Source of the DNA: Capitulum mitella
Taxonomy: Eukaryota > Arthropoda > Thecostraca > Pollicipedomorpha > Pollicipedidae
DNA: 64,000 nt
Direction of reading: 5' to 3'
Assembly: GCA_030062745.1 (NCBI GenBank)
Contig: CP099849.1
Coordinates: 22,370,144 to 22,434,143 of the forward strand
Part shown: positions 2,599 through 33,700 of the stretch, in pieces
Layout: the number at the start of each line of letters is the position of its first letter
How positions within the stretch are numbered: position 1 is the first letter of the stretch
The notes under the pieces: generated by a model
What the model was told of the DNA's origin: nothing
Database searches by the model: none
What the model saw: the letters and a program-made list of their open reading frames with translations, nothing else
Translations under genes and position numbers: made by a program

Positions 2599-5425
2599 CT
2601 CAAAGCCTCAGAAAACTAAGAGCGACAAACCCCAGTCAGCGTTTCATCGCTGGGGTTGGAGACCACAGTAGAAAATTCAAGATCCAGGGAGATCCAGGCG
2701 AGGACAAAATAATTCATGTACCACCTGGTGTGCAGGTCACTACTCAAGAAGGCAAAGTGTTAGGTAAATATGATGATGGTTTCTTCCACGTATCGAATGA
2801 CTGGTACGAATTTGATGTTTCAATTGAAAAGTGCAAAATACCTTCTGAAGTGTGTTCACATACAGCTGCAGTTTTGTTCATTGCATCTGTAGCTGTGCTC
2901 TCTTTGCCAAGGAAACGAGCTACTTTTTTGTTGTGATTTCCACAAATGCAATATTACTGAAGTGTGTTCACATACAGCTGCAGTTTTGTTCATTGCATCT
3001 GTAGCTGTGCTCTCTTTGCCAAGGAAACGAGCTACTTTTTTGTTGTGATTTCCACAAATGCAATATTACAATCTGAATCCCGTACGGAATATCAAAGCGA
3101 TTCGTGGTAATTGCAATCATTCGCGAATACACATTTCTGGGCATGCTTCATGATGGCGTTCTGGCCCATTATTGCCCATTAAGCAGACCAAAAGTGACCC
3201 TGCCATCTGCAGGTGACTGTAATGTGGTCGGCGACCGCGTGCTGGGAGCTCGCGGCGGCGACGGCGGTGGGCCCCACACCGGCTACATCGGCCGACCCGG
3301 TCAGGCATGCCAGCTCTACCTCACTCTGAAGCTGATCGCCGACGTCGGTCTGGTGGGGTTTCCAAACGCCGGCAAGTCGACCCTGCTGCGCGCCATATCC
3401 CGCGCCAGGCCCAAGGTTGCCAGCTACCCGTGTGAGTGAGATTTGGTCCGGCTCGGCGCCGTCAGTTAATGCTTCTGCCACGCTTCTGTGCCACTGTGCG
3501 ATGCTTAGGTGAACTCGAGGCTGAAAGATGTCATCATGTGTGAATGAACGTGGAAATTATTTCTCGCTTCAGTGACCGTTCTCGCTGACATTTTCCCTGA
3601 GCTTACCCTCCATGTATAATTTTGGCGGTCGTTTGCGGACGAACGGACACCACCACATCCAGCGGTTGACTTCGCGAATACGTTTTCGCGCCTGGAAGTC
3701 AGTGCACTCGCAGATCGATGGTTGTAACCGGTGCCGTAACGTTCCAGTCACCACCATGTCTCCGGAGCTGGGGACGGTGCACTACCCGGACCTGCGTCAG
3801 ATCTCGGTGGCCGACCTGCCCGGCCTGATCGAGGGCGCCAGCCGGAACGTCGGCCTCGGCCACAGCTTCCTGAGGTAGGCCGTCAGTGGACAGTGGCGTC
3901 CGGAGCTAGCCGCCGCCCGGACCTGCAGGCGCCGCTCGTGGCGTACTGCAGGCGGACATGGGCTCGGGTCCCGAGGGCATGCCGGCTGTTCTCGTTTTGT
4001 GTCGGTTCTTAGCTGACGAGAAGAAGTGGCGCCCCACCTGCATGCGTCTTTGGACGTCATTGTGTTTGGAGACGGGGACACGACGCTTCCGAGACGACTC
4101 AGAGACACGCCCAGGTCATCAAAGAGGTCGGTACAAAACGGAGATAATTTGGATTCCATTAGGATCCAGGCGCATGCCTGTTGACAGGTGCCGCGCGTGT
4201 GGGACCACAATACCCGTGCCGTAGCGTGCAGACTCTGCGCGTGTTAGCGACCTTTGAATCTATCGCACATCCCCTGCTCCCGTGCCTCTAGAACCATCCA
4301 CGGTTAACCAGAGTTTAATTGACATTTTGCTTCTCAGGCACGTGGAGAGGACGAAGCTGCTGCTGTTTGTCGTTGACGTCGGCGGCTTTCAGCTGAGCCC
4401 GGATCGGATCAGGCGGTCCGCTTTTGAGACTGTCGCCATTTTGAATCGGGTACGGCTGCATTTTGTTCTGGCGTGTGCAGGTTGAGCCGCGGTGTAGCCA
4501 GTCTTTGTGAAATGTATTCGGAGAAGGACCAGTGAATATATGTATATAGAGGATGTACTATAAGCTTCAGTGTCTGTCTCAGCCTTATGATCACAAGGCC
4601 TCCTCGACAAATTCTCCTTGTCATGATTGCTTCCCAACGTGGACATTGTTTTGTATTGCTGGTGGACATGTATGTGCGTATTCATCGCCTGATGCTTTCC
4701 ATGTTGGGATTTTCTTTAACGTATCTTGCATGCATCTCTACTATCATTGTTTTAGGGGTCAAGGGTCGTCAGGAAGCTTACTAAACTTTCCTCCGTGAAT
4801 TCTGGTTACTAAACGACCCTCGAGTTGACCGCAGGTTAAGCCTGAAACTAACGAAAAACTCCCTTTAAAATACAGGAAAAAAGGAAATATCGAATGCAGT
4901 GAAAGACATTAAGAACTCACCATTCACGTTACGTCTCTGCGGAATGTGTCTCTTTCTGTACGTGTGTGCCGAACATCTGCTCGCTGAACTCCAGTCAACC
5001 AGCGAAATCCCCGGCAGGAGATCGAGTTATATAAACCGGAGCTGCTGGACAAGCCGGCCATGTTGGTGGTGAACAAGATGGACTCTCCGGCCGCGGGGGA
5101 GGCCTGGTCGCAGCTGAAGGAGCGGCTGGCGGCGGGCCTGGACGCGGCCAGAGACCTTCTGGACGACTGCCGACCGCAGCGGCCTGCCACCTTCGACCAC
5201 GTGATTCCGATTTCGGCCAAGACGGACGCCGAGTCGGTGGAGCGCGTGAAGCAGAAGCTGCGCAGTTGCCTGGACCTGCACGAGGCGCCGGCGCCGGACG
5301 TGGCGGACGTGCGGCAGCGGCTGCGCACCGGCGCCGTGGTGGCGCTCCAGAGTCGCACGGTGGCCATGGACCGCGACCGGTGGCGCCGCCGCCGGCAGGC
5401 GCCCGAACTACCGCGGCTGGTGTGA
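2599..5425 (+). CDS. GTPBP10: GTPBP10, Obg-family GTPase (5' partial, five exons)
   Basis: Exons 2599-2763, 3213-3431, 3748-3874, 4338-4449 and 5018-5425 (TGA) join in frame through GT-AG introns and give 342 residues. By comparison with the usual length of just under 400, about 55-60 N-terminal residues are missing. Exon 1 here gives the end of the Obg domain (QRFIAGVG). Exon 2 carries G1 (GFPNAGKST), with G2 (YPFTT) across the next junction and G3 (DLPGLIEG) in exon 3. Exon 4 has [13 protein letters not shown], and exon 5 has G4 (NKMD) and the G5-like ISA. In the known family this protein binds GTP and helps mature the large mitochondrial ribosomal subunit. The C-terminus ends in an Arg-rich stretch (DRWRRRRQ). 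I saw no canonical AATAAA within the kilobase after the stop. The family call is strong; separation from the paralogue GTPBP5/MTG2 rests on closer similarity to GTPBP10. Confidence 0.9.
2845..3068. repeat. Perfect 112-bp tandem duplication in a GTPBP10 intron
   Basis: Positions 2845-2956 and 2957-3068 are identical by eye, placed head to tail in the intron between the first two visible exons (2764-3212). Each copy contains a cagctgcag that could act as a weak acceptor. The lack of any difference suggests a recent event, an allelic variant or an assembly artefact. Confidence 0.92.
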
Positions 5426-7591: not shown

Positions 7592-10500
7592 ATGCCTGCC
7601 AGTAACTCTGCTGCTACTGCGAAAAAGTTCAGCAATGAAGAGGAACTCCTCCTTCAGGACTTCAGCCGCAATGTATCAACGAAGTCATCAGCTCTCTTCT
7701 ATGGCAACGCATTTATTGTCTCAGCCATCCCAATTTGTAAGTCGTTTTTATTGTCTTTTGTTTCAGTTTCAGTTAGGTTGCTGTGGAATGTCCCAATGTT
7801 TCTGGCTGCATATTTGGAAGGGAGGGATGCATTTAAATGCGCCTTACTGGTACACTGCTAAAAGTAGCTATATTCTTATTAACATTCATTGGAATGGTAA
7901 TTGGTGCATTCACTGTTTGGTGTGTTCATCATTTATGTTGTGTTGGTTTTACACTGTTTTATGATGTAAATAAGAGAATTGTGTAATAAGCAGGGGCACA
8001 TGTACTCTGTTGGGCATTGTCTGGTTGGTTTCACTAGGGATGCAGCTCATTGTCAGTGGCATCTTTGGTACTATTTCAGTACCAATAATTCCCAAACTTA
8101 GCATTGGGTCTTGGTAACAGAAAGAATGGGCTTCAAAGTGGCATTGAAATTGTTCATAATTGTCCAAATTCAAACCCTCTACTATTGCAGCTCATTGAAC
8201 CCCAGGCATGATTTCAAAAATGCAGAGTAGTAAGCTAATGGAAGTAGCATTTTCCCCTCTTTAAAATCCATTATTTCTTCCAGAGGTGCATGTGAAGAGA
8301 GAGTTCATAACTGGACATATACATTGATCGCAAACAATAATTGGATTACTGGAGGTGTGTCCCATTGATTTTCATAAACAGTGAATGAAATTGATAGTGC
8401 CTGCACCAGTGGCATTTAGTAGTACCTAAAATTTCACCTGTTTATATATTGCAGTTTAGGGGTATCCAGAAAAATGGGGACCAGAGACATTTGCTCTCTG
8501 GCTAATGTGAAGTTCTCCCAGAAATAGCAAAGCCATGGCCACCTGCCCCACTGCCATTTCTATTGCTGTGAAATACTGTAATTTACCAAATGCTGAGGAC
8601 TGAAAATTGTAAAATAGGATAAAATTGAACTGGTATGAAATAATGTTTGTTTTGGCATAATAACTCATAATAGTAATGCAGCTATACCAGTGGTAGTAAT
8701 GCTCATATCCATATTGCATCTCTCCTACTATACTCTTATCTAAACCTTGCTAAATTTTTTTATGGCTATTTTGCCATAGTGTAAAACATCTCCTTTCTTT
8801 CTCATTTTCATCCCTAAAGGTGTTATGGCATGTGACAGAGAAGTATGTGAAATTTCATTTCTACCATGCAACATTTAGTAGGAGATAATTTCCAACCTAA
8901 GTAGTTTATAGTCCTTGCTTTATTGAGTCAATTGCACATTGAGATACTAGGGACTAAAGAAAAGGGATGTGTAAAATGGGCAACATTGCAGTGAATTGTC
9001 TGAAGCTAGTCATCTGAAGCTACTTGTCTGAAACTTGCAGTTAAGTGTCTGAAGCTACTTGTCATTTCATCTGCTTTAAATGTCCATGGCCAACTTAATG
9101 TATAGCATGTCATGTTCGTTAGAAATTAAATGATTTGTTAGAAATATGATGCATAAAAGCGATTTAAATGGAGCTCGGGCATGCATTAATGACATGCTGT
9201 GCATTCTTGGACCTGATGGTAGATCCTAATGCTGTTTCTGGAGCATTTGTGAAAGTTTTGTACCATCAGGATTTTATTCTAGCAAGCTGTAAATTCAACA
9301 ATTTCCTGTCTCAGGGCTGTACTGGAGGATTCATATGATGGAGCTGTACTCCTCCATTCCCATCTTCTTCATTGTCACTCTGGCATCTACCTACCTGGTT
9401 GCCATGGCCTACAAGAACACCAAGTTTGTTCTGAAACACAAGGTATGTTAATTTATATGGTCTGTCTTTGGTCTTGATTGTCATACTGGCAAACTGGAAA
9501 CAACAGTTATGGGCAGTATGCCTGAATTGTTGTCATTCGGTCTGATATTGTAAGCCAGAAATAATAATATGTCCTTTTTAATGAAACTGAATAGGATTAG
9601 CCATTATTATACATGGAATTTCACATTTTTGGAATGGGACTTTGAATTCAATATTGCTTGTGTATATGCATGTGACATCTGAGCTACCATGATCAGTAGC
9701 TCAGTTGGTAGAGCATTGGTCTCCCTGTCCTGGCAAGACTGGTTCAAGTTGCTGGCATTTGATATTTGGCCCATGGGTCAGCTGGCAGCTGGCCAACATA
9801 AGGTCAAGCTGACTACCACATGACCATGTCTTACCCTTGGTGGCACATTAAACTTTTGCCACAAAATCAGCCATTACCAGGAATTGTGCCATTGGGTGTA
9901 GGGGTCAGAGTCTGTGCAATAGGCTCTGCTTGGTGCAGGCTCCAATCCCTAGCAGTATGTTGTAAATGTTGACCTAATATTGAATCCTAACAGTACCCCT
10001 GGATGAAACACAGAAGGAGTTGAGGTAATGATGGTATAAGAATGCATTCTAGAATAAGATTATCACATTTTTATGTCTACCCTTTCCTTGATCAAGATTG
10101 CTGTCAAGCGTGAGGAGGCTGTGACCAAAGAGATGCAGAAGAAGCTTGCAGAAGACAAGAAGATGAGCAAGAAAGAAAAGGATGAGAGGTGATCATACAG
10201 TTACAACAGTGTTCATTGTATGCTGTAGACAATTTGGTTTTTTTGCCTGCTCTAGTAGATATTACTTAAGCTGTGTGAGATGTTTTGTTTATGTCCAGTA
10301 TGTTCACCACATTTTTTATTGATGATCAAATTGAGTTATTCCCATTGTTTACTTTTGAGAAGTTCATTGTGAATATTCTAAACTTTGTGAAATAGTGCTG
10401 CAGTAGGGTTGCTTTTAATTGTCATTTGCTTATTGTTAAAGATTGTAGGTTGTGACAAGGACAGTGTGTATTTGAAGAACAGTGTCGTTAAAATTGTTCA

Positions 10501-10824
10501 GCTTTGTCTCATTTCTATCAGACTGTTCATGCCATTATTGATATTGTGACAGCTGTGTTGTACTCTTGCTATCTGAACACACAAACCACCATACCTCATT
10601 GACAACGACTACGGCGGCCTTGCAGGACGCTGTGGAAGAAGAACGAGGTGGCCGACTACGAGGCCACCACGTTCTCCATCTTCTACAACAACGCCCTGTT
10701 CCTGGCGATCGTCATCGTGGCCAGCTTCTACGTGCTGCGTTCGTTCGCGCCCACCTTCAACTACGTGCTGTCGATGGGCGCCGGCGCCGGCCTGCTGGCC
10801 CTCCTCTCCACGGGCACCAAGTAG
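7592..10824 (+). CDS. SSR3: Translocon-associated protein subunit gamma (SSR3), complete
   Basis: Exons 7592-7736, 9315-9442, 10097-10188 and 10626-10824 (TAG) join in frame through GT-AG introns and give 187 residues, against about 185 in vertebrates. The ATG at 7592 was chosen because the conserved block [12 protein letters not shown] follows at residues 16-27. Predicted membrane segments lie at about 35-53, 61-81, 142-160 and 165-183. A highly charged cytosolic stretch (about 88-128, rich in Lys and Glu, [10 protein letters not shown]) separates the two pairs and is followed by the family signature [21 protein letters not shown] (124-144). In the known complex the four-span gamma subunit sits beside Sec61 in the ER membrane and helps some signal peptides enter the channel. 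Exons 2 and 3 are nearly free of CpG while exon 4 is CpG-rich. It lies between GTPBP10 and KPNB1 on the same strand. Confidence 0.95.
9691..9960 (+). mobile_element. tRNA-derived SINE-like element in SSR3 intron 2
   Basis: The segment at 9691-9755 looks like a decayed tRNA gene. It has an A-box-like tagctcagttggta at 9697, a D-stem match and a B-box-like ggttcaag at 9741, at the usual spacing for an internal RNA polymerase III promoter. About 200 bases of unrelated sequence follow, as in tRNA-headed SINEs. The anticodon and T arms do not fold well, so it is not a working tRNA. The right end is a guess because I see no clear tail or target duplication. Confidence 0.5.
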
Positions 10825-14906: not shown

Positions 14907-17900
14907 ATGATATCGGAGTCAGCAGGACAGCTTATTCAGATTCTAGAGAAGACCGTGTCACCTGGTAAGTAATGATTGATTTCAGTCGTTCACAAGAAAT
15001 TGATTGTCAAAAACACAATATGCTTTTATAGCCATGGATGTTAAGTTCTATGAACCTTTGACTACACCTCTCATGTTTCAGAATGAAATTTAGAGATTTT
15101 TATATTCTTATTAGCTTCATTAGTAGACTTTTTTGTGAGAGTGATATAATTTGGTTTTGTGTGTAAATGATAGGATTTTGTGTTGTCATGAGCACTTTTA
15201 CACAAAAAATTGTGGGATTTTGTTTTGCTGTCCAGACTGCAAACTGGCAGATTTTGGCAAGATTGCAGTGATGCAGCACTCATTGTTGCTGCTCATTATG
15301 CACTTGGTTTGGTTTCTGTGGCATAGTTTGGTGCCCTGGTGCTGTGATGTTTGTCACAATCTTCACTACCATGGCTAGAATCCGAGTTTCTAGAAAGATT
15401 GGCGAAAGCATTATTACTGGAAATGCTCTTGACACTGGAATTTGAGGTTCAAGTTCTTTGATTCCTTTGGAATTATTTTCCTTCACAGCTTGATGACATC
15501 TTTGTAGTAATAGTATGAGTTATCATTGTCAGTTAAATTATATTTCTGCACAGTTAAGCTACACTGTTATAGATATAATACAAGCTCCTGAGGTTACTGA
15601 AATAATTTCTTGGATTCTTACTGTTGCTTTGTTTACTAGGTAAGGGATTGTTTGGAAGAAGTCCATGCTCAAAAGATTGTATAGGGTAAAAGATGGTTTG
15701 GCAAAATATTTTGTGAAAGATCCTTTAGCATGAGGTAATGGCATGACATGAGGTAATGGCCTGAGCTGTGTTCATGAGGTAATACCTAACCTAAAGTAAC
15801 CAGACTTAACTAAATCCAACTTACAGCAACCAGTTACTTTGTTTGTGGCAAATCAATTACAATATGCACAGCAAACCTATTACTCTGCTTACAGTAAGTT
15901 GGCTACTACACCTTCAGAAAACAGATTGATAAACTTATGGCAAGCTGGTAACTATGACAAGCTGATAAGTATACATACAGTGAACCAATTATGGTGCATA
16001 CAGAAAACTGCTTACCACTCCTACAATAAGCCAACTTTTGTACAATCTTCACCCTGCATGATCTTTATCCCATATGATCTTTTGCCATGGTATCTTTTGC
16101 TTGCAACCTTTTGCCATACCATATTTTAACCTGTTACCCAACATTGATGTCATAAAACCAGAGAAAAATAGTTCCAGTAGACCCACAAAATTTTTACTTT
16201 GATTTCTGTGGTGCCATGGTCATTCCCAGCATTTGTGTTTGCACCATAGGGTCTTCCCAGAAACCTTGGATTTTAGTACAGGTGGTGCACTTAATAAAGA
16301 TTACTGCACATACCAGGAGGAATATACACTGGAAAAGAGCAGTATTGCTTGCAAAAGGCACTTGCAACCATGATGCATGTTACTCATTGTCAAGATTCTG
16401 GCCTTCTCAGAGTCTTATTTTTTCACAGTTTGTAGTCTGAATATGCACATTTTTTTTATGGTGGCTTATAAATGTTATGATAACTGAGATGTTAACAATT
16501 TTTTTGGTGGGGTGCTAACTGTTTATCTAAACAGATGGGTGCCACAATGTTTGTCTTTGACTAAGTCTGTTTTCCACATGAAGTAGGTATAATATATTCA
16601 TCATGAAGATTGCTATAAATTTGAGTAATCTTCCTACTCCATCAGCTTGCTTAACCATAAAATCAGTTTAAGGAAGATTTATATGCACTGACAATTAAGA
16701 TATTAGCCACACAGCAGTGTGAGATGACAATTCATTGTTGGGAGCATTGGTCCTTCACTTTTACTCAGGACATTTCTGGCCTTGTGTAGGACATTTTGAC
16801 ATTTTTTGTATCTGCCATCCTTCATGCATTCAATGTCATTTATGATAATGTGTCATTTTTTATTGGCAGTCAATGTAAGACTGTATAACATGCAGTATTT
16901 TGTATCATCTACATTTATTGCTTTAGGATGCAAAGTTTCCTGGTGCATTGCACCAGGAAGTGCCATAATTAAAGTATTTTGATGTTTTTAATCATGAAGT
17001 TGATGAGACAACGTATGACATGTACAGACAATGTACAGGCATTTGGCCTGCATATCAGAATTCCTGTAAGGCTAGCATAATTTTACAACATGTAAAAATG
17101 TTGTGCAAGACAGTGTAAGAGGAAGGAGAAGTCCTTGTGGTCTGAAGACTGAATAGAAAGATATGCTTTCATTGAACATGGACATATCAGATTGTGAACA
17201 TGTAGTATTAGTTTTCTTTTCTCCTGAACATTGGGTGTCCTCATTTGTATCATGGAAATATTTGTGTTCTCTGTATACATCACGACTTCTATTATTGTCA
17301 CTGATAAAGTCATTGCATTAGTGGGTGTTTCTGCAAGTGGGCTTGTGGAATGAACTACACTTGATGCCATGTATGCCATGTGACTATAATGTTGATGAAT
17401 GGGCACCTGAAGGCCCCAAAATAACCTTGTGTAACCTAGTGTTATGTCAGGTAGCCAGTGTATACTGTAGGTTAAATGAGTAAACTGATGTCCTGCCATG
17501 TGTGTAATGACCAGATTAAGTGTTTTGTTGGGGCTGTGTTTCTTAGCTGAGGCTAATTTACTACCTCAGTAGAAAGCATGTTCTTGTTTGTTACTTTTTT
17601 GCCACATGGTTTTATACATTGCTTGCCTTAATTGGTATTACACTCATAACAAACATAGAACAACTGTTATTCAGATAATTGAGTGTGCATATTTCATGTT
17701 AGATATTTAACATATCAAAGCAGCTATAGGATTGTTTGTACTGAAGTCTAAGTACTGTAGTTTATTTTAGCACAGCTCATCATTGGATTCCAGTGCAGTC
17801 TACCAAAACTCCATTGCTGCTGTAATGGTATGCAAAGTATTAAGTGTTGGCCATTTGAAGTTTCTGATTAATCTTACTGTCTCCAGTGCCACTAAAGATA

Positions 17901-20900
17901 TTTCGTTATGGTGTTCCATTCTCTTACTGTAATAGGACCTTTCCTATTAAAATGTCCTTGAAACCTCTTGAAATGTCATTCTCAACATTCATGAACTGCT
18001 GTGCTCTGTTGTCTGTTGTGTCACCATAATGAGTCTTTCATAAATTTTATAACCTCTTTTGTATTTTGTGTCCTGCCTGTAAGCATGACACTGGTGGTAA
18101 ATCCCCTTGGATGTCCATTACACAATTTATGGACTGTCTGGAAATGGATAGAGACCTATGCTGTATACTGTCCATGACCCTGCCACCTGTTTGGGCAGGA
18201 GTTTTAAACCACCAATTTAGTTCAACACTTTGCTGTCAAATCTGCAATAAATGGTCCTACTTTGATGTGTAATGCATCAATGTGATGAGGTATGACTTAA
18301 CCAAGTGGCTTGCCCAGCATTAGACCCTGTGTCTGTAAATCTTTGCAGAATGTGTTGTAGAGCTATCAACTTATGTGTTCCACCATTAGTTTATTTCCAT
18401 CACTGCTGACTGATGACTAGATCAGTTTATTCATTGTCGTATAGTGGTCCCAAGTTTCCAGTTCATGAAGCTTTGATTTTGTGACTCAGTTAAAGCTTTG
18501 ACGTTGTTTCATACATATGAATTGAGAGAAGGTTATGGAATAAAATTACTATTGCTGAAGCATAGGACACTTCATTTTAGAGCAGTCACCACTCACCAAT
18601 GTTTTTGCTCTATAAGATTCGTCTGAATAGGATGTCTTGGGTACTGGCAGTGTGATTGTCATGGAGCTAAATCATTGTTTGTTTTTGTGGGAAGGAGTAT
18701 TGTATATCATGCGCACCTGTCACGTTGAAGACCTGAAACAGTATGAAGCTGTTCATGTCTTGTGGTTTATGGAATATGTGCCTCTTTTCCAGATAAAGCA
18801 GAACTAGAAAGAGCCCAACAATTCCTGGAACAGGCAGCACAGCAAAACTTCGTATGTTCCACTCATGGCTGATATATTCTTTTCCATCATCATTCAGTGC
18901 AACAAAGTAGCTGTCATTCGCGAGAAATCCCATCTTGGCTCGCATGGGTGTCGGTGTTTTTTGCAGTAATAAGCAATTACATTCAAAACTCCATCCCATC
19001 AGAGTATATGTTAGTGGATATTTGGACAGTCCTTCATCTATTTGTTGCCTGCATTGTAACAGTTCAACAGATTTGATCAGATTACTGTGGTCTTTCAACG
19101 ACATCTGGTGCTCACCAACCGTGCGTGTCCACAGCCGGAGTACGTGAAAGCCCTCTCGGACATCCTGTACCATGGCGCCAACAGCCCTGTGGCGAGACTG
19201 GCAGCGGGCCTGCAGCTCAAAAACACCCTCACATCGAAAGATGCGACCGTCAGGCAAATGCACCAGCAGCGCTGGCTGGACTTTCCGCAGGACGTCAAAG
19301 AACACGTGAAACGAAATGTGAGGAGCCGTCCTAAAGATGTGAAACATGTACCTCCTTTGCACCTGTTTATACTTGAGAGCTTTACTTGTCATGCCTGGCA
19401 TGTGATAGATGTACTAGACTCTGACTTGATGCACTAATGTTTGGTACGTGGCATGTTCACTGACAACCTGGTGATGAAACAGTGGCGTTTTCCGGACACG
19501 TGAATGGCAGCTGACTCGGCGCCCGTGCTGACGGCAGATTTTGGCGGCGCTCGGCACCGAGAACAACCGGCCCAGCTCGGCGGCCCAGTGCGTGGCGTAC
19601 ATCGCCATCGTGGAGCTGCCGCAGGGCCAGTGGACCGACCTCATCAGCGTGCTGGTCAACAACGTCATCGGTCCGGGCTCCACCGAGATCGTGCGCGAGG
19701 CCTCGCTGGAGGCCATCGGCTACATCTGCCAGGTGGGCCGCCGCCGCCGGCCGCCGGGCGCTGACGGACTTTATATTGGTGTGGTCTGCGTGATTTGGCG
19801 CCTAGTACTTGGCTTAGTAATTAGTACTTGGCAGGATTAGGTAGTAGTCTGTAGGTTGTTTAGCTTGTTTATGCTGTATGTAGTTCGTTTGGTTTGTTTA
19901 TGCCCCTGTGTTGATTTGCTTTTGGGCGTAAAAACATTGGCATTCATGTCTCGAATACTGTGGCCATCTTATAGACGTAACAACAATTGCCAAACTGTGA
20001 GAAATTTTCCTTGTTATGTGACGTGCTGAAGCGCATCTCACGGCTGGACGTGTTGCAGGACATCGAGGCGGAGGTGCTCGCGTCGCGCAGTAACGAGATC
20101 CTGACGGCCATCATCCACGGCATGAAGCGGGACGAGCCGAGCTCGCACGTGCGGCTGGCGGCCACCAACGCGCTGCTCAACTCGCTCGAGTTCACCAAGT
20201 CCAACTTCGAGAAGGACGTACGTGCCTGCCGCCGGCTGCCGGCGGTGGTCGCTGGGTGGACCGCGAGTGCCGCCATGTGCGCGTGATGCGGCTGTGAGGG
20301 TCGAGAAGGGCAACTTGTCTCTGGGTAGAGACGAGGACGGTTGCCGCTCGAAAGCCCAGAAGGCTTGGAGTGGGGTTGGCTGTTGCTCGGCCTTTGGTAC
20401 CAAAGCATAGAAATGTCTGGGTGGTTTTGTAGTCGAAATAACTGTATGAAAATGAAAAATATCACAAAGCTGAAGCAATATTGAGGAAAAGTTGCCTTCA
20501 GCTGTAACATTTAAGCCTATGCTGTTTATGTTTTGCTGTATGCGTCTGTGGTTCTCAGTCCGGTGTCAATGTCACGGTGACGGAAGATGTTGACCAGGGT
20601 TGATGGGCCTCCTGCGGAGCCGAGTCCTACATCACGCTGACGTCGACTGTCTGCGCCTCTCGCCAGGCCGAGCGTCACTACATCATGGAGGTGACGTGCG
20701 AGGCCACCCAGTCGTCGGACACGCAGATCAGAGTGGCCGCGCTTCAGTGTCTAGTCAAAATCATGACGCACTACTACCAGTACATGGAGACCTACATGGG
20801 CCCAGCTCTCTTCGCTGTGAGTATCTCCGACGCGTTTGAGCCGCTTGGGACGTCATATTTCCCTCCTGACGCTCGCTGTTCCGAAATTGGTTTTGACAGC

Positions 20901-23900
20901 TTTAGCAGTTTATCAGCATTAATTGTCAGTGTTGGCGCTTTTTGGAATCGTGCCCTTTCTTCCCATTTTTATATCCTACCACTGCTGCATTCAGCCAGAC
21001 GTCAGTTGTGGGCAGTGACCGTTCGTCGCGACCTCTGCACTTTTGTACAGGTAATATGTGATGGGTGTTCTTGTCGCACCCATAGCAGAGACTCACCACT
21101 AGCGCTTGACCTCCGCCCGGACGCACCGAACACCAAACGATATCAGCCGCCCTCCGAGGGGTGGCTGATGTCCGGGCAGCCCGGCTGACGTTGCCCGCCC
21201 GTCCAGACCAAGGGTGCCGCCAGCCCGTCCGGTCCCCGCCCGACGTCGGGCCGGGGCTGGGGACTGGGCCTGACACCGGACTATCGCGATGCGCTTCCTG
21301 ATGGTTCCGTTGTTTCCTCTCGCCGCAGATCACGCTGGAGGCCATGAAGTCGGATGTGGACGAGGTGGCGCTGCAAGGCATCGAGTTTTGGTCGTCGGTC
21401 TGCGATGAGGAGGTGGACCTGGACATCGAGGCGCAGGAGGCGGCCGACCTGGGCCGCCCGCCCGAACAGACGAGCCGGTTCTACGCCAAGGGCGCGCTCC
21501 AGTACCTCACGCCGGTGCTCATGGAGAGGCTCACCAAACAGGTGCGTCGGCAGCCGCCGCGTGCGGGATTCCAATACGGCTGCCAGTGCTCATTTGTTGA
21601 ATAAGTATGTACAGGTGCGTCGGCAGCCGCCGCGTGCGGGATTCCAATACGGCTGCCAGTGCTCATTTGTTGAATAAGTATGTTGAAAAATTGAGTTGTT
21701 TTTTTATCAGTATGTGCGTCGTAGAACATCATGTTGTTCTCTCTCTCGAGTGTCTTCATTCTGTTTGCTTATTTTGCACCACAATCAGTATTTTATCAGG
21801 GTTGTGTGTACTTGTTGGCCCCATGGTGCGTAGCGGTAGCCTTGGGTTGCGTTACTTCCTTGTGTTAACGGAACCTGTCACGCTGAGTATTTCCAGCGTA
21901 TTTAGGTTGCCAAGCGCTCACTCGCCGCTGGCGGAGCCGGGCGGAGCTTCGGTCGGAGGACACATGCTGAGCTTGCTGCTGCCGCACCCGCAGGAGGACG
22001 GCGACGACGAGGAGGACTGGAACCCGTCGAAGGCGGCCGGCGTCTCGCTGATGCTGCTGGCCTCCTGCGTGGAGGACGACATCGTGCCGCACGTGCTGCC
22101 GTTCGTCACGCAGCACATCGAGTCGCCCGACTGGAAGTTCCGCGACGGCGCGTTGATGGCCTTTCGGTGAGCTCGCCGGCTTCGTCGGTTCCGACGGCCT
22201 GACGTCCGACCGACGATCCTCAGGCCCCACGTCCCCGCCGGAGACGGGGCCTGAGGCTGGTCGGACGGTATCCTGCTCAGTCTTGTTTCGGGACTTTATG
22301 TTAAGTTTTGACTGCAGCTTGAGTGGATTTCACCTGTCAGAATGGCCTGTTTTCGAAGTTCATTGTATTGACTGGAGTCAGGTCTGATATGGCGTTGGCA
22401 GAGGTGCGTTTCGTTGCAGCTCACAGGGATGTCTGTTTACGATAGGCTCGATACTGGAGGGGCCGGACGCCACCAAGCTGAAGCCGCTGGTGGAGCAGGT
22501 GATGCCGATCCTGATGCAGCTGATGAAGGATCCGGTGGTGGCCGTCAAGGTAGGTGTCCAGGTCGAATGGGTGTGGTGTTGAGACTGAATGCCTTTGTTT
22601 TTTCACACCTTAGAAGTGCTCCTTGGCCGACAAGAATGGCCACACCATGTGAAAAATTGATGTTTGGGCCCGGAATCTGCGCTCAGACTGCAATTTCCCT
22701 GTCGTCGCGCTGGCCCGCGGGCAGCCCCGATCTCACCCCCGACGCCCCGTCACGCCCCGTGACACCCCGACACGCCCCGTGACGGCCGCCCGGCCCCGGC
22801 AGGACACGGCGGCGTGGACGATCGGGCGCGTCTGCGAGCTGATCCCGGACGCGGCGCTGAACGAGGCCCACCTGCCGGCGCTGCTCGAGACGCTGGTGGC
22901 CGGCCTGCAGGCCGAGCCGCGCGTCGCCACCAACGTGTGCTGGGCCATCTCGGCCCTGTCGGAGCGCGCCTACGAGTCGGCGCAGGGCGTCGGCGACGAC
23001 GACGGCACCGACCCGGAGACGTACTGCCTGTCCAAGTACTTCGAGGCGCTGGTGGAGCGCCTGCTGGAGACGACGGGACGTCCGGACGGCAACCAGGTGA
23101 GGCTGCCGCCGCCCGATGAGGGGGATTGCAGGGATGTCGCTGATTGGTTGGCGCGGCGCATTGTCGCGCTTGGATGGTGGGTAAAAATCTGGCCTTGTTC
23201 TGGGCAGAAAGATTCCAGTGGGGAGGACTTGTGTAGGCAGGCGTCTTGAGTCCGAGACAATCCTTGCTTGGGTTGTCCTTTAAAGTCCTGTAAGAAAACG
23301 CTGTCGTGTTTCGATAAATTACATGATGCGTTGCTGATCGTTTTTCGATTGTCCACGCAGTCGTATTGTCTTACCACTGAATGCATAAACTCGCGGCCTT
23401 TGATAATCAGTCGCAATTCCATTTGCACACCGCGTAAACAGCACCTGGTGGGAACGTCATCACTGTTTGGCGAACGTCAGGCGGGGATAGAACCGGTAGC
23501 CGCAACGCGTCACGGTGGCGTCACGTCGCCGCGCCAGACCCGGCGGCGGACCCGCGTGTGCTCTGACCCTGTCCGCGACCTCACCGACAGAGTAACCTGC
23601 GCAGCTCCGCTTACGAGGCACTGATGGAGATGATGAAGAACTCGCCCAAGGACTGCTACGCCACCGTGCAGAAGACGGTGGTGGTGATCCTGGGCCGGCT
23701 GCAGCACGTGCTGAACATGGAGAACCACATTCAGAACAACAGGTCGGTGGATTGTGGCCCAGCTGCGGCCATTTCTGTTTCTTTCCGTTTGATGAGAATT
23801 GCACTTGGTCCAGTGACATCTTTTGAATGTTTGTCAGGCGCACGCACGTACGTTTGAGTAGCTGACTTGTGAACAGACGTCACCGAGGATGCTCTTGCCT

Positions 23901-26900
23901 GAGTGGCAGCGCGATGATCATCCATCTTATGTTAACATGTTTCACAATATCTATTGCTGTCCCTGCGTACCGCGACCGTGGGTGTTCTTGTGACTGGGTC
24001 ACGCCCCGCACGAATCGTGTCTTGCCCGTTTTGGTGTCATGTCTGGCTGTGGTCCGGCCCGTCCGTGCCGGTCTGTGTGTCACGTCTGAGAGTGCGGGCG
24101 TCTATCTGAGCTTCCGCTCTTGTGCGGCAGCGACCGGGCGCAGTACAACGACCTGCAGTCGCTGCTGTGCGCCACGCTGAGCAGCGTGCTGCGCAAGGTC
24201 ACGCCCGAGGACGCGCCGCAGATCTCCGACCAGATCATGACCGCCCTGCTGCAGATGTTCTCGAACCGTGAGTGGCCGGCTGCCGGGGCGCGGCGGACGG
24301 CCGAGGCAGGCGGTCGGGCGGGGAAGGCGGTGGGGGATGTGATGGTGTCTGCCCGATTGAGGCGATGAGAAGGGGAATTTCGGGAGTGACCAGAGAAACG
24401 ATGAGAGAGAAAGTAGTCGAAATAGTGAGGGGAACGGCCCAGTCGAATCTGTTTGTATGGGGAAGTTCAGGTCTCTGGAAGTGTAGGAACTTTAGGTCCG
24501 GGCCGCGTGCGAAGATGTTGAGGTTACCTGACACGTTTTGGAGGTTTGTGAACGATCCAGTCGGACCAGGAACCTCCTCAGGCTCCAGATGTGGCTGGGT
24601 GGGTAAGATGCATTGCGAGGCCTGCCTGTCTCTTCGAACAGGATGTCACGCTTAGTACTTCATGGCATGGCTGAAAGCGTAACCCCTGACTCGGTCTGGA
24701 TCCGTCCGCAGCGCGCGTAGGCAGCGTGCAGGAGGACGCCCTGAACGCGGTCTCGACGCTGGCCGAGGTGCTGGGCGAGCAGTTCATCAAGTACCTGGAC
24801 GCGTTCAAGCCGTACCTGCTGATGGGCCTGCGCAACCACGCCGAGTACCAGGTGTGCTCGGTGGCGGTCGGCCTGGTGGGCGACATCTGCCGGGCGGTGG
24901 GCGCCCGCGTGCTGCCCCACTGCGACGACATCATGAACATCCTGCTGGAGAACCTGGGCGTGAGTGGATTGCAGCCGGTGGCGGCTGCGGCCTGGTCTGG
25001 CTGGCGTGACTGGCTGGTCGCTTGTCGCGACTTCTGTGATTCTTGTTGGAAATCGGAAAGTGAAACAGGCCTTGTTGCTCTGAAAGGGGCAGTGAAGTAG
25101 CGCGTGAAGCGATTTAGATACCAGGCTGTATCACCCAGATATGTCGGTACCGCCAGGGCTAGGGTTAGGGCTCAGGGCTCAGACTGAAATAACGCCAAGT
25201 CACAAAGCGTTGAACAGTATAAATAATGCAGATACCTGATTGCGCCGTAGATTGATTTTTAAACTGGTACTCGCCATCACTTGAGGCGTGTTTTTGCGTC
25301 TTTGCGTTTTAGCAAGTCTTCAGCCTGGCGACTTCCGCTGCATGTATTTTAACAGGAACACCGAAAGAGCCCGAGAACTGAGCGCCAGTGAGCCTCTCAA
25401 CTTCCCTACCCTCCATTGTCTGTGAGCGCGCTCTGCGATGGTGTGGTGTCGACCGTGCGCGGCCGCTGTGTGCCGTGCCGCCGCGCGGCCTGTCTCTGAG
25501 CCCCCCGGTCGGCGCCCGCAGAACCAGTCTGTGCACCGCTCGGTGAAGCCGCACATCCTGACCGTGTTCGGCGACATCGCGCTGGCCATCGGCGGCGAGT
25601 TCAAGAAGTATCTGGACGTGTCGCTGCAGACGCTGATGCAGGCGTCGCAGGCCCAGGTGGACCGGGTGAGTCGGCGCAGGACGCGCGGGGACGACTGGGT
25701 CCTCGGCTGGGTCTTCAGACTTCGGGAAGGGGATGTTGTCGGTTGCGGCATGGAATGGTAGTAATTGTGAAGAAATGTTATCACTGCCTTCGTTAAGTGA
25801 GCTCAGTGGCGTTCTGGCTGGTGGTTCACATTGGGAACGCCGAGAACGTAGACTGTTGATACGCCGTTGTAATTCCTAGCCCGGCCTAATGATCAGTTAT
25901 TTCCATTACTGCCCGTTACTGGCCTGTCCGGAGCTCTGGTGGCCGCGCCGTCTGACCGGCCCTCACCGGACGCCGCATCTGACGCCGTCGGCGCCCGCCC
26001 TCGCCCGCAGTCCGACTACGAGATGGTCGACTACCTGAACGAACTGCGAGAGACTTGCTTGGACGCCTACTCGGGGATCATCCAGGGCCTGAAGGGTGAC
26101 GGCAAAGTGGCCAGTCCGGACGTGCTGCTGCTGCAGCCGCACGTCTCGTACATCATCCAGTTCATCTGCGTGGTGGCCAGCGACCAGGAGCGGTCTGACA
26201 GCAGTCTGGGCGCCGCCGCCGGCCTGCTCGGGTCAGTGGATTGCCCTCGTCGCCCGCGACGAGCGCTGGAGGGGGCTGAAGGGACTGCGGGACTAGAGCA
26301 ACCCGCCAGCTGCTGGAGTACCCGACGGGAGTGGAGGAGATGATGATTTACGGGGAACGCGTTGATGACTGACGACAGTTGAGGGATGGTCGATTCTTGC
26401 CGCATATAGTAGCTGACTGAAGTCGCCGAAATGGCTAACTTGATGGTTCTGTTTTGTTTGCTGCAGATCGTATTTTTATCGTATCTGTCGTCAGTCTGAG
26501 TTGCAGAGAATGGCTGAAGAGGTTCCAGACGGTAGCTAAAGTGTTTCACCGTTTGTACTTATTTCGCTGCAGCCACATGATGGCACTCGACTTTTCACTC
26601 GTCTGTTGGGCGCACGGGTTTTCGGGCGCTCCGCCGTGCTTGAAACTCAGTCCGACTTGACCTGACTGACCCTGATGTGACCGGACCCAAAGTGGGTCGG
26701 ACCAGGCCATGACTGAAGTCTGGCCCGGCCATGACCGGGGTCTGGCCGGCCCTGACCTGACCCGACCCGACCTGACCGCAGTGACCTGCTGTCGGCGTTC
26801 GGGAACGCCATCCTGCCGCTGGTGGACAACGAGTCGGTGCAGGAGATGCTGTCGCAGGGGCGCCGCTCCAAGACGGCTCGCACCAAGACGCTGGCCACCT

Positions 26901-26950
26901 GGGCCTCCAAGGAGCTGCGCAAAATGAAGAGCGCCGCCAGCAGCTGGTGA
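14907..26950 (+). CDS. KPNB1: Importin subunit beta-1 (KPNB1), 16 coding exons
   Basis: Exons: 14907-14964, 18793-18851, 19135-19317, 19538-19732, 20059-20217, 20667-20816, 21329-21541, 21994-22166, 22446-22549, 22803-23096, 23591-23742, 24131-24267, 24712-24959, 25522-25665, 26011-26231, 26782-26950. With one surplus base at exon 8's end ignored, they give 885 residues against 876 in human, all in helical HEAT repeats. The N-terminal importin-beta domain (about 20-100, [11 protein letters not shown]) binds Ran-GTP. The acidic loop [11 protein letters not shown] is at 340-350. Strongly conserved blocks are [64 protein letters not shown] and the end block [12 protein letters not shown]. In the known pathway it carries importin-alpha-bound cargo through nuclear pores and releases it on Ran-GTP. 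Oddities: an extra C at 22165 shifts the frame at exon 8/9, the exon 7 donor is duplicated, and the stop overlaps a donor-like sequence. Confidence 0.95.
14965..18792 (+). other. KPNB1 intron 1, CpG-depleted
   Basis: At 3.8 kb it is by far the longest intron of the gene; the others are about 0.2-0.5 kb, apart from those near 0.5-0.6 kb around exons 14 to 16. It is AT-rich with about ten CG dinucleotides along its length, while TG and CA are frequent. No open frame in it has a known motif. Confidence 0.7.
21538..21683. repeat. Perfect 73-bp tandem duplication copying the KPNB1 exon 7 donor
   Basis: Positions 21538-21610 and 21611-21683 are identical. The unit starts with the last bases of exon 7 (acag) plus the donor gtgcgt, so a second full acag-gtgcgt lies 73 bases downstream. 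Use of the second donor would add 20 codons and then an in-frame TAA at 21602-21604. Confidence 0.92.
26655..26780. repeat. Degenerate short repeats in the last KPNB1 intron
   Basis: Repeated gacctgacc-type units, plus two near copies of a ggccatgac...ggtctggcc block, fill the end of the intron before exon 16. They occupy the place where a pyrimidine tract would be expected, and the tract before the acceptor (ctgaccgcag) is weak. Confidence 0.5.
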
Positions 26951-30574: not shown

Positions 30575-30735
<161 letters not shown>

Positions 30736-33700
30736 CCCCACCGCACGTTTTGTTTGGCATATATTTTGGCATCTCTTTCCTCTCTCACTCCGAACCTCTC
30801 GTCCTTTCTCCCCCCCCCCCACCTTCTTCTTTGTGTTCCTCTGTCTACGTTCCTCTATCTCCCGCTCATTCTTCCTCTGCCTCTGCTTAAATCTCTTCCT
30901 CCGTCCATTTCTTTTCCCCTCTGTCCTCGCTATCTCTCTGTCTATGCATCTCATCGCTGCCTTTTGACCTGCTTTTCTCTCGTCTCCACTGCCACGTAGT
31001 TTATTAGTCGACACGGGTCCGAGTGAGACATCAGTAGGCTCTCAGACGCTAATCCTTGCGCCTGCCCGCAGATGCCATGACTGGAATGACGGCTGCGCTT
31101 TTCACAGCCGCGACCGGGGCAGTTCCCACGCGTAAAGCGGCCGGAGCGACTTTCCTGGCCGTCATCGCGGTCCAGCCCTCGCATTATCTCGGCCAGACCG
31201 GCCGCTTGTGAAACAAAGGAGAAGACGTCAGGCTCGTGGTCCGATTGTGCGGCAGGCGTCCGGCGGCGGGCAGCTGTAAACAGCGTCCCGGAGGGCTCCT
31301 GGGCCACGGTGAAACCCCGGGAATGACAAAAGTGTTTGTAAGGAGCTTTGGCCGTTGCTGCGAGTGAGGTGTTTGTTGATTGAGCGGACTGCAAGCTGCC
31401 CTTGTCTGTGATGTATAAGATCTAGTGTATGTGTCATAATTATGAAGGAGTCAAATGGTGGCCTGTATAATCGCCAAGGTCAATAAAGCTTTGACATCAC
31501 TTTGCGATATTTCAAGTAAGCAGCGATAGAGAGATCACTGGCTCTAGCGTCAATGGCTCGATGATAAATTACACCCATAGATAAACGGAGGTCAGAGCCT
31601 TACTAGGTTTGATGATGCGGCCATTTGGAGATAATCTGGCGCGTCATAGACGAGTCTGTATTCTCGAAATCTCATGCAGGTCTGAGGTTTGCCGTTCAGG
31701 AACCCAGCCCACATCGGCCTGACAACAGGACATTCATCCATCTCTCTCATATCTCTGCGTTCTGTTGCTCTGCACTGTGCATTTTCTTTGGCTGGTAGAT
31801 ACGTACGATGAGATGTGTCCTTAAATTGACATAAAACCGGGCAACAATGCGGCGATTTTCTGGGTAGTTTCTGACAGAACTGAGCGTTTCGGCAAAAGTA
31901 CATCTTCAGACGTCTTCAGGAAAACTTTCGGGGACGACTTGAGACGTATGACGGCCGAAACGTTCTCTGCAGAAAAAATAACGGCGAACTTAACAGTCTA
32001 GATTTGTGGAAGATAAAAAATGGAACGCTTGTATGTAATCATGTTTGTCTTTTATCTATAAGTACATTTTGTGGTGTTCGCCTGTTGGTGAAAAGTTTAG
32101 ATTTATCTTGGCATGGCAGGGGTAGGGGATACTCATGGAGATAGTCCTTGCTCTGTCATTTACTCCAGCACTCACCTAAATGCTATGTGGGATCGACTGG
32201 CATCTTTGCCCGTCGCCCCTCTACGTCATAGCGGTAACAGCCGCATAGGTGGCGAAATATGCCAGGGTAACAACACAAGACCAGGCGCAGGATTTCATGG
32301 TATCAAATGAACAGACTATGGTCTCCGCTATGATAAGCTGATAAATGTCTCCAACAAATGGGCATGTTTGGCTTAGACGTCAGACGATGTGGTATGACAT
32401 AATCCCTCCCAATCCTTCGACATTTTAATCCTTTGAGTAGCTCTTCATTACTCTCACTTGGATTTTATTCGGCGATCATCGGGCTTATCGAATGATTCTG
32501 GTGACGGGACTGGATCTAGGGTTACTACAATAATAGCATTGCCCCATGAATGACCATAATGTGGAAAAAATTGTCTGCAATATCCAGAGTTTTGCGCTCG
32601 GAGCGTTTCCAACGATATTTATGAAGCAACGGTATATGACATTACTTAGATACCATGCAGTGTTCCAAATCCTCGTGATATTCACATTTTGTGATAAGAA
32701 AACTCGCGGGATTCGTTTAATCATTTCCTAGTGTTTTTGCCTGGCCGACGATGGCGCGACGAATTGGACACTGTCTGAGTAGAACTGTCTTTGATAGCGT
32801 TCTTGAATCACGTCTTTTGATTTGAACTTCATCCGCCTCCTGGACTAGTGCGTTTCAGTATGAGGGACTACGACAAAGCTTGCACAGAAGCATTTTAACT
32901 TCGTTCTGTACTCTTACTGCTGGTTTCGAAAAATCGGTAGCTTTGCGCAACAGCGGGATTTTCGGTAGAGACGTCATCCTCAGACAGCGGAGGCATATCT
33001 GAGATGCCTCCAACGATTCGGGTCGCCGCGGACGGATGTGATATTTCGTCATCGTAACGTGTCTCGAAATCGGAGCGAGTCTTCGCCGTGAAGGCAGGCA
33101 ATGATAAAGCTGATCTTTGTGGGATTTGTCGTTCTGTTTTACGAAGATCTGCGCTGAGCTTTGTTCTGCTTGTACCAAATCCGATTTTGGAGACCGATAG
33201 ATTGTTAAGGTCACCAAAATGGGGAACCCGTTCATTGTCAGCAGTCCGCAGATCCAGCGTTATTACTGATGAGCGACAATTTGTGCTGTAGGTGTAAAGA
33301 AGTAAGATTAGGTTCGAGAGGGATCCCTGAAAAAGAATTATGATGAGTAGGCGCATCGGAAACGGGTGGAGGAAATTCGGACAGCGTTCTTGAACCATCT
33401 TAGCTAGTTACAATGATTTTTTGCCTGGGAAAGGAACCAACTAAATGCGTTTTCCTCCATCCCGGAAACGTTTCGCCACCATCGCCCATAGGCATTCGAG
33501 AGCGTTAGAGCTTAAAAAGTGTACGTTGAGTTCCCAGTTGGGCTGCCGCACCGTTGTTTTGAAAATCGAACTCGAGAATGACGATCAGTGCTTTTGAAAC
33601 ACCCACAAGGTCATTAAATCATGCAATTTGTCACGATCTGGTGCGCACAGGGCCAAATTTCACGGAAGTGTAAACAATCGGACAAGGGACTGGGCATCCA

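Follow-up and report, generated by a model that had tools for sequence, protein, structure and literature searches.

The window, a 64,000-nucleotide stretch of Capitulum mitella contig CP099849.1, contains three recognisable animal genes, all on the plus strand.

2599-5425, plus strand: part of GTPBP10 (a mitochondrial Obg-type GTPase), modelled with at least five exons
7592-10824, plus strand: SSR3 (TRAP-gamma), four exons, the first placed by Pfam
14907-26950, plus strand: importin beta-1 gene KPNB1, 16 coding exons, from an exon model and phmmer matches to PDB chains of importin beta-1

All modelled junctions of the two smaller genes are in phase (4 of 4 in the GTPBP10 part, 3 of 3 in SSR3). 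In an unsystematic look, the N-terminal exon of GTPBP10 was not seen. SSR3 has an intact frame, and its exon 3 uses an AAG acceptor; exons 2-4 of this gene were placed by eye from the protein sequence. At 9690-9760 lies a stretch that by eye resembles a tRNA-derived repeat in its motifs (tagctcagttggtagagca, then ggttcaagt); ARAGORN found no tRNA in the window, and Rfam found nothing there. A perfect 112 bp tandem duplication occupies 2845-3069 in a GTPBP10 intron, and at 30584-30736 a long array of (CT)n repeats extends for about 150 bases.

KPNB1 has a coding length of 2,659 bases across its 16 modelled exons. Its composition changes sharply within the gene, from 44-47% GC in exons 1-2 to 57-73% in exons 3-16, and third positions are 91% G/C across the whole gene. 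We built an exon model and found that 14 of the 15 junctions are in phase, while that between exons 8 and 9 alone fails, by one base. This agrees with the initial annotation, which had singled out the same join as the only one out of phase and whose coordinates proved right. The elements around the junction are as follows.

21994-22166, plus strand: exon 8, ending GCC TTT CG before gtgagc (exon model)
22162-22166, plus strand: TTTCG, which holds the one surplus base, most likely in the T-run (reading frame, Phe codon usage and Phe-Gly pairs)
22167-22445, plus strand: intron 8, GT-AG (exon model, donor/acceptor pairing)
22206-22268, plus strand: GC-rich inverted repeat with 23-nt arms at 22206-22228 and 22246-22268, 87% complementary (repeat listing, folding)
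22414-22419, plus strand: ttgcag, an alternative in-frame acceptor proposed in the initial annotation, with which the exon would start at 22420 (exon model, acceptor pairing)
22420-22424, plus strand: CTCAC, a motif resembling a branch point, whose A is at 22423, 22 nt upstream of native exon 9 (motif scan)
22446-22549, plus strand: exon 9 as defined by the native acceptor (gatag), with first bases GC TCG ATA CTG (exon model, homology)

The conserved segment AF-G-SILEGP calls for one exon 8 base after the Phe codon, and two are present, just as had been read from the ttt-cg before GTGAGC. When the acceptor at 22446 is used, the downstream frame is lost, again as proposed, and the reading of the spliced message ends at codon 531, within exon 11, leaving five junctions downstream of the stop.

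The claim of one extra base where exon 8 ends thus stood, whereas its assignment to the C at 22165 is the less likely choice, because codon usage fits a surplus T better. Apart from the focal codon, the Phe codons of KPNB1 are TTC in 16 cases and TTT in 2 (14 and 1 in exons 4-16), and the two other Phe-Gly pairs of the protein are written TTC GGC and TTC GGG. TTT(C)G and TT(T)CG cannot be separated by the sequence alone. Since lengthening a short T-run by one T would also be the easier error, the surplus base is more likely the third T of TT(T)CG (22162-22164) than the C. A working gene would then read GCC TTC G|GTGAGC, and splicing to 22446 would give the conserved AF-G-SILEGP.

The rest of the gene is intact on both sides of the break. 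In phmmer searches against importin beta-1 of the PDB, exons 1-8 matched their best chain at 588.5-588.9 bits over 391 aligned residues, and exons 9-16 matched theirs at 696.8-697.1 bits over 483. The homology to importin subunit beta-1 (PDB 2p8q, 1qgk) extends over nearly the whole protein, the difference being that a single surplus base next to the exon 8 donor breaks the frame of this gene. Because conservation is as good in exons 9-16 as in exons 1-8, KPNB1 is not decaying. A DNA query of 596 bases around the junction, run against the window's own genome (477,042,490 bases in 16 contigs), matched, among the best candidates scored, only this locus and a short inverted stretch within it, and no close second copy able to cover the loss was found. 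Searches with the exon 8 protein in genome_contigs and viral_contigs, prokaryotic or viral collections from which little was expected, gave 80 and 8 pattern matches, respectively, none of them a confirmed relative.

These results suggest that the surplus base closing off KPNB1 exon 8 entered the assembled sequence through a sequencing or assembly error, to which we assign a probability of about 0.7; the odds given here to all four readings are judgements, not computed values, and a small remainder is left unassigned. We prefer a consensus error because it explains everything with the fewest assumptions, and we infer it, rather than a real allele, behind a frame break that is plainly visible in an otherwise intact gene. 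The extra T would have entered the short T-run while the consensus was being made. Frame-breaking indels of a single base have been documented as errors in long-read assemblies; in one report, a figure shows a 1-base deletion leading to a frameshift, in a comparison in which a polished rice ONT assembly carried 1.06 errors (substitutions and indels) per kb (PMC7736813). The present case resembles such errors (PMC7736813, PMC8337076) in being an isolated one-base indel that breaks one frame and leaves its surroundings intact. It differs in that the T-run is only three bases long. Several points count against an error: the assembly is chromosome-scale (477 Mb, 16 contigs), a run of three T is short for a homopolymer error, and well-polished nanopore assemblies can contain very few coding indels (PMC8337076). 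The in-phase junctions of SSR3 and of the GTPBP10 part agree with an isolated error; a single break in about 4.25 kb of modelled coding sequence also means that nothing else points independently to a high error rate.

The immediate surroundings of the junction offer a possible cause of local sequencing trouble. The inverted repeat at 22206-22268 starts 40 nt past the end of exon 8, inside intron 8, and its arms are the longest among the three inverted repeats that the listing gave for the 12.5 kb gene region (arms of at least 16 bases, at most 120 bases apart). The stretch that contains it folds as single-stranded DNA at -25.9 kcal/mol (z -3.35), and 1 of 200 shuffled sequences folded equally well. 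A hairpin of this kind can locally lower read quality or the success of short-read polishing, and it may have done so here. Farther upstream, at 21538-21683, 73 bp are duplicated perfectly in tandem (100% identity); the duplication takes in the donor of exon 7 with the four exonic bases before it, so that this donor occurs twice. The duplicated donor was considered as a compensating shift and rejected, because 73 bases add one more base to the frame and exon 8 would be read out of frame. This duplication and that of 112 bp in GTPBP10 may be real or may be further marks of assembly.

Were the extra base real, one haplotype could carry a true loss-of-function allele, whose message would be a target of nonsense-mediated decay while the animal lives on its other copy. 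The frame break itself and the stop in exon 11 with five junctions downstream fit such an allele, and Drosophila with one imp-beta null allele (imp-beta0) serve in genetic tests (PMC3276186). Exons 9-16, however, bear no other sign of decay. Importin beta is essential, so null alleles should be rare, and we regard this explanation as unlikely.

A species-specific change of splicing would instead keep the extra base, join exon 8 to 22420 and add RSQGCLFTI inside a HEAT repeat. As the initial annotation had noted, the ttgcag acceptor restores the frame exactly: the result is an open protein of 894 residues with the nine inserted. The rescue is not unique, because the AG acceptor at 22402, with the donor at 22166 unchanged, also leaves the frame open, with 15 extra residues, and scores slightly higher than 22420; an in-frame AG close by is therefore no strong evidence. 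We scored the acceptors with a matrix built from the 14 sister introns of KPNB1, which gave -0.25 for 22446, 2.49 for 22420, 3.02 for 22402 and 3.53 for 22427. By this measure 22420 is at least as good as the native site, although two sister acceptors, each left out of its own matrix, fall below 22446 (-4.86 and -2.76). Also in favour of a splice change, 22446 ends in TAG and is the only one of the gene's 15 acceptors that is not CAG; among the eight acceptors modelled in SSR3 and GTPBP10, seven end in CAG and the eighth in AAG.

Branch-point-like motifs point the other way. The motif CTSAC occurs 18-28 nt upstream of 8 of the 14 sister acceptors, compared with 9 of the 437 decoy AGs taken from these introns (6 of 228 when intron 1 is left out), and the looser YTNAY upstream of 10 of 14, compared with 102 of 437 (31 of 228), in a range of distances that was picked after these distances, including that of 22446, had been seen. 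The native acceptor has CTCAC at 22 nt, whereas the other four AGs tested as candidates (22402, 22404, 22420 and 22427) lack even a YTNAY at 18-28 nt. When the range was widened to 10-60 nt, three YTNAY motifs preceded 22420, at 32, 48 and 57 nt, the nearest being CTGAT at 32 nt with two AGs in between. CTSAC is a habit of KPNB1 and not of the window, because the acceptors of SSR3 and GTPBP10 have it in 0 of 8 cases (YTNAY in 4 of 8) at 18-28 nt. One AG intervenes before the native site, at 22425-22426, two bases beyond the putative branch A at 22423; AGs very near a branch point can be bypassed (PMC1431707).

The insert itself resembles intron sequence in composition. Only 4 of its 9 third positions are G or C; a share that low was seen in none of the 769 nine-codon runs of exons 4-16 and in 29 of 869 over the whole of KPNB1. 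With the insert, the match to importin beta chain 2p8q dropped by about 20 bits, from 257.9 to 238, and the best HEAT_EZ match fell from 68.2 to 59.2 bits with the loss of the first five profile positions; RSQGCLFTI would split a HEAT motif. Homology to importin beta resumes exactly at 22446, and once the Gly is written in, the top importin beta-1 chains of the PDB align across the insertion point without a gap in the three alignments listed. The rescue acceptor at 22420 is thus disfavoured on branch-point, composition and homology evidence, with the acceptor matrix pointing to the opposite choice, and we consider a splice change quite improbable. Among the options that the initial annotation had left side by side, then, the error is favoured and the splice change is not. 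We also paired GT and GC donors at 22100-22440 with AGs up to 22540 and examined the best 15 frame-keeping pairs; 13 of them delete or replace conserved residues, and the top two are the donor at 22166 with 22402 or 22420. A GG-AG intron at 22165, which would give AF-R-SILEGP, was put aside because GG donors are not known to be in regular use.

Finally, a real and fixed insertion might be corrected during translation, if a P-site tRNA-Phe slipped +1 from UUU to UUC at GCC_UUU_CGG_C and left AF-G-SILEGP unchanged. A shift after UUU yields MAF-GSILEGP exactly, and a slippery UUU_CG core in the zero frame is indeed followed by conserved protein in the +1 frame, but any T added to TTC-GG creates the UUU_CGG core automatically. 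The site shares this in-frame core, with a +1 shift leading to the next open frame, with the programmed frameshifting site of vertebrate PLEKHM2 (UCC_UUU_CGG; PMC12551717); it also resembles the PA-X site (PMC3498833), and corrective frameshifting on single-base insertions has been proposed for mitochondrial ND3 of birds and turtles (PMC7814300). The codon before the core is UCC in PLEKHM2 and GCC in KPNB1, and KPNB1 would need the shift for every full-length molecule. Shifting reached about 1.3% at the PLEKHM2 site in HEK293T cells (PMC12551717); the PA-X site gave about 1.3% when assayed in lysate and 0.74% with a dual reporter, and a change of its CGU to CGG halved shifting (PMC3498833). 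An efficiency of about 1% at such sites is too little for an essential gene, and slippage is therefore a very improbable explanation.

If the surplus base is a consensus error, as we favour, it matters for annotation only, in that the annotated gene would end early or contain a spurious insert of nine residues. If the base were real and fixed, KPNB1 would be a rare example of a frameshift tolerated in an essential nuclear gene of an animal.
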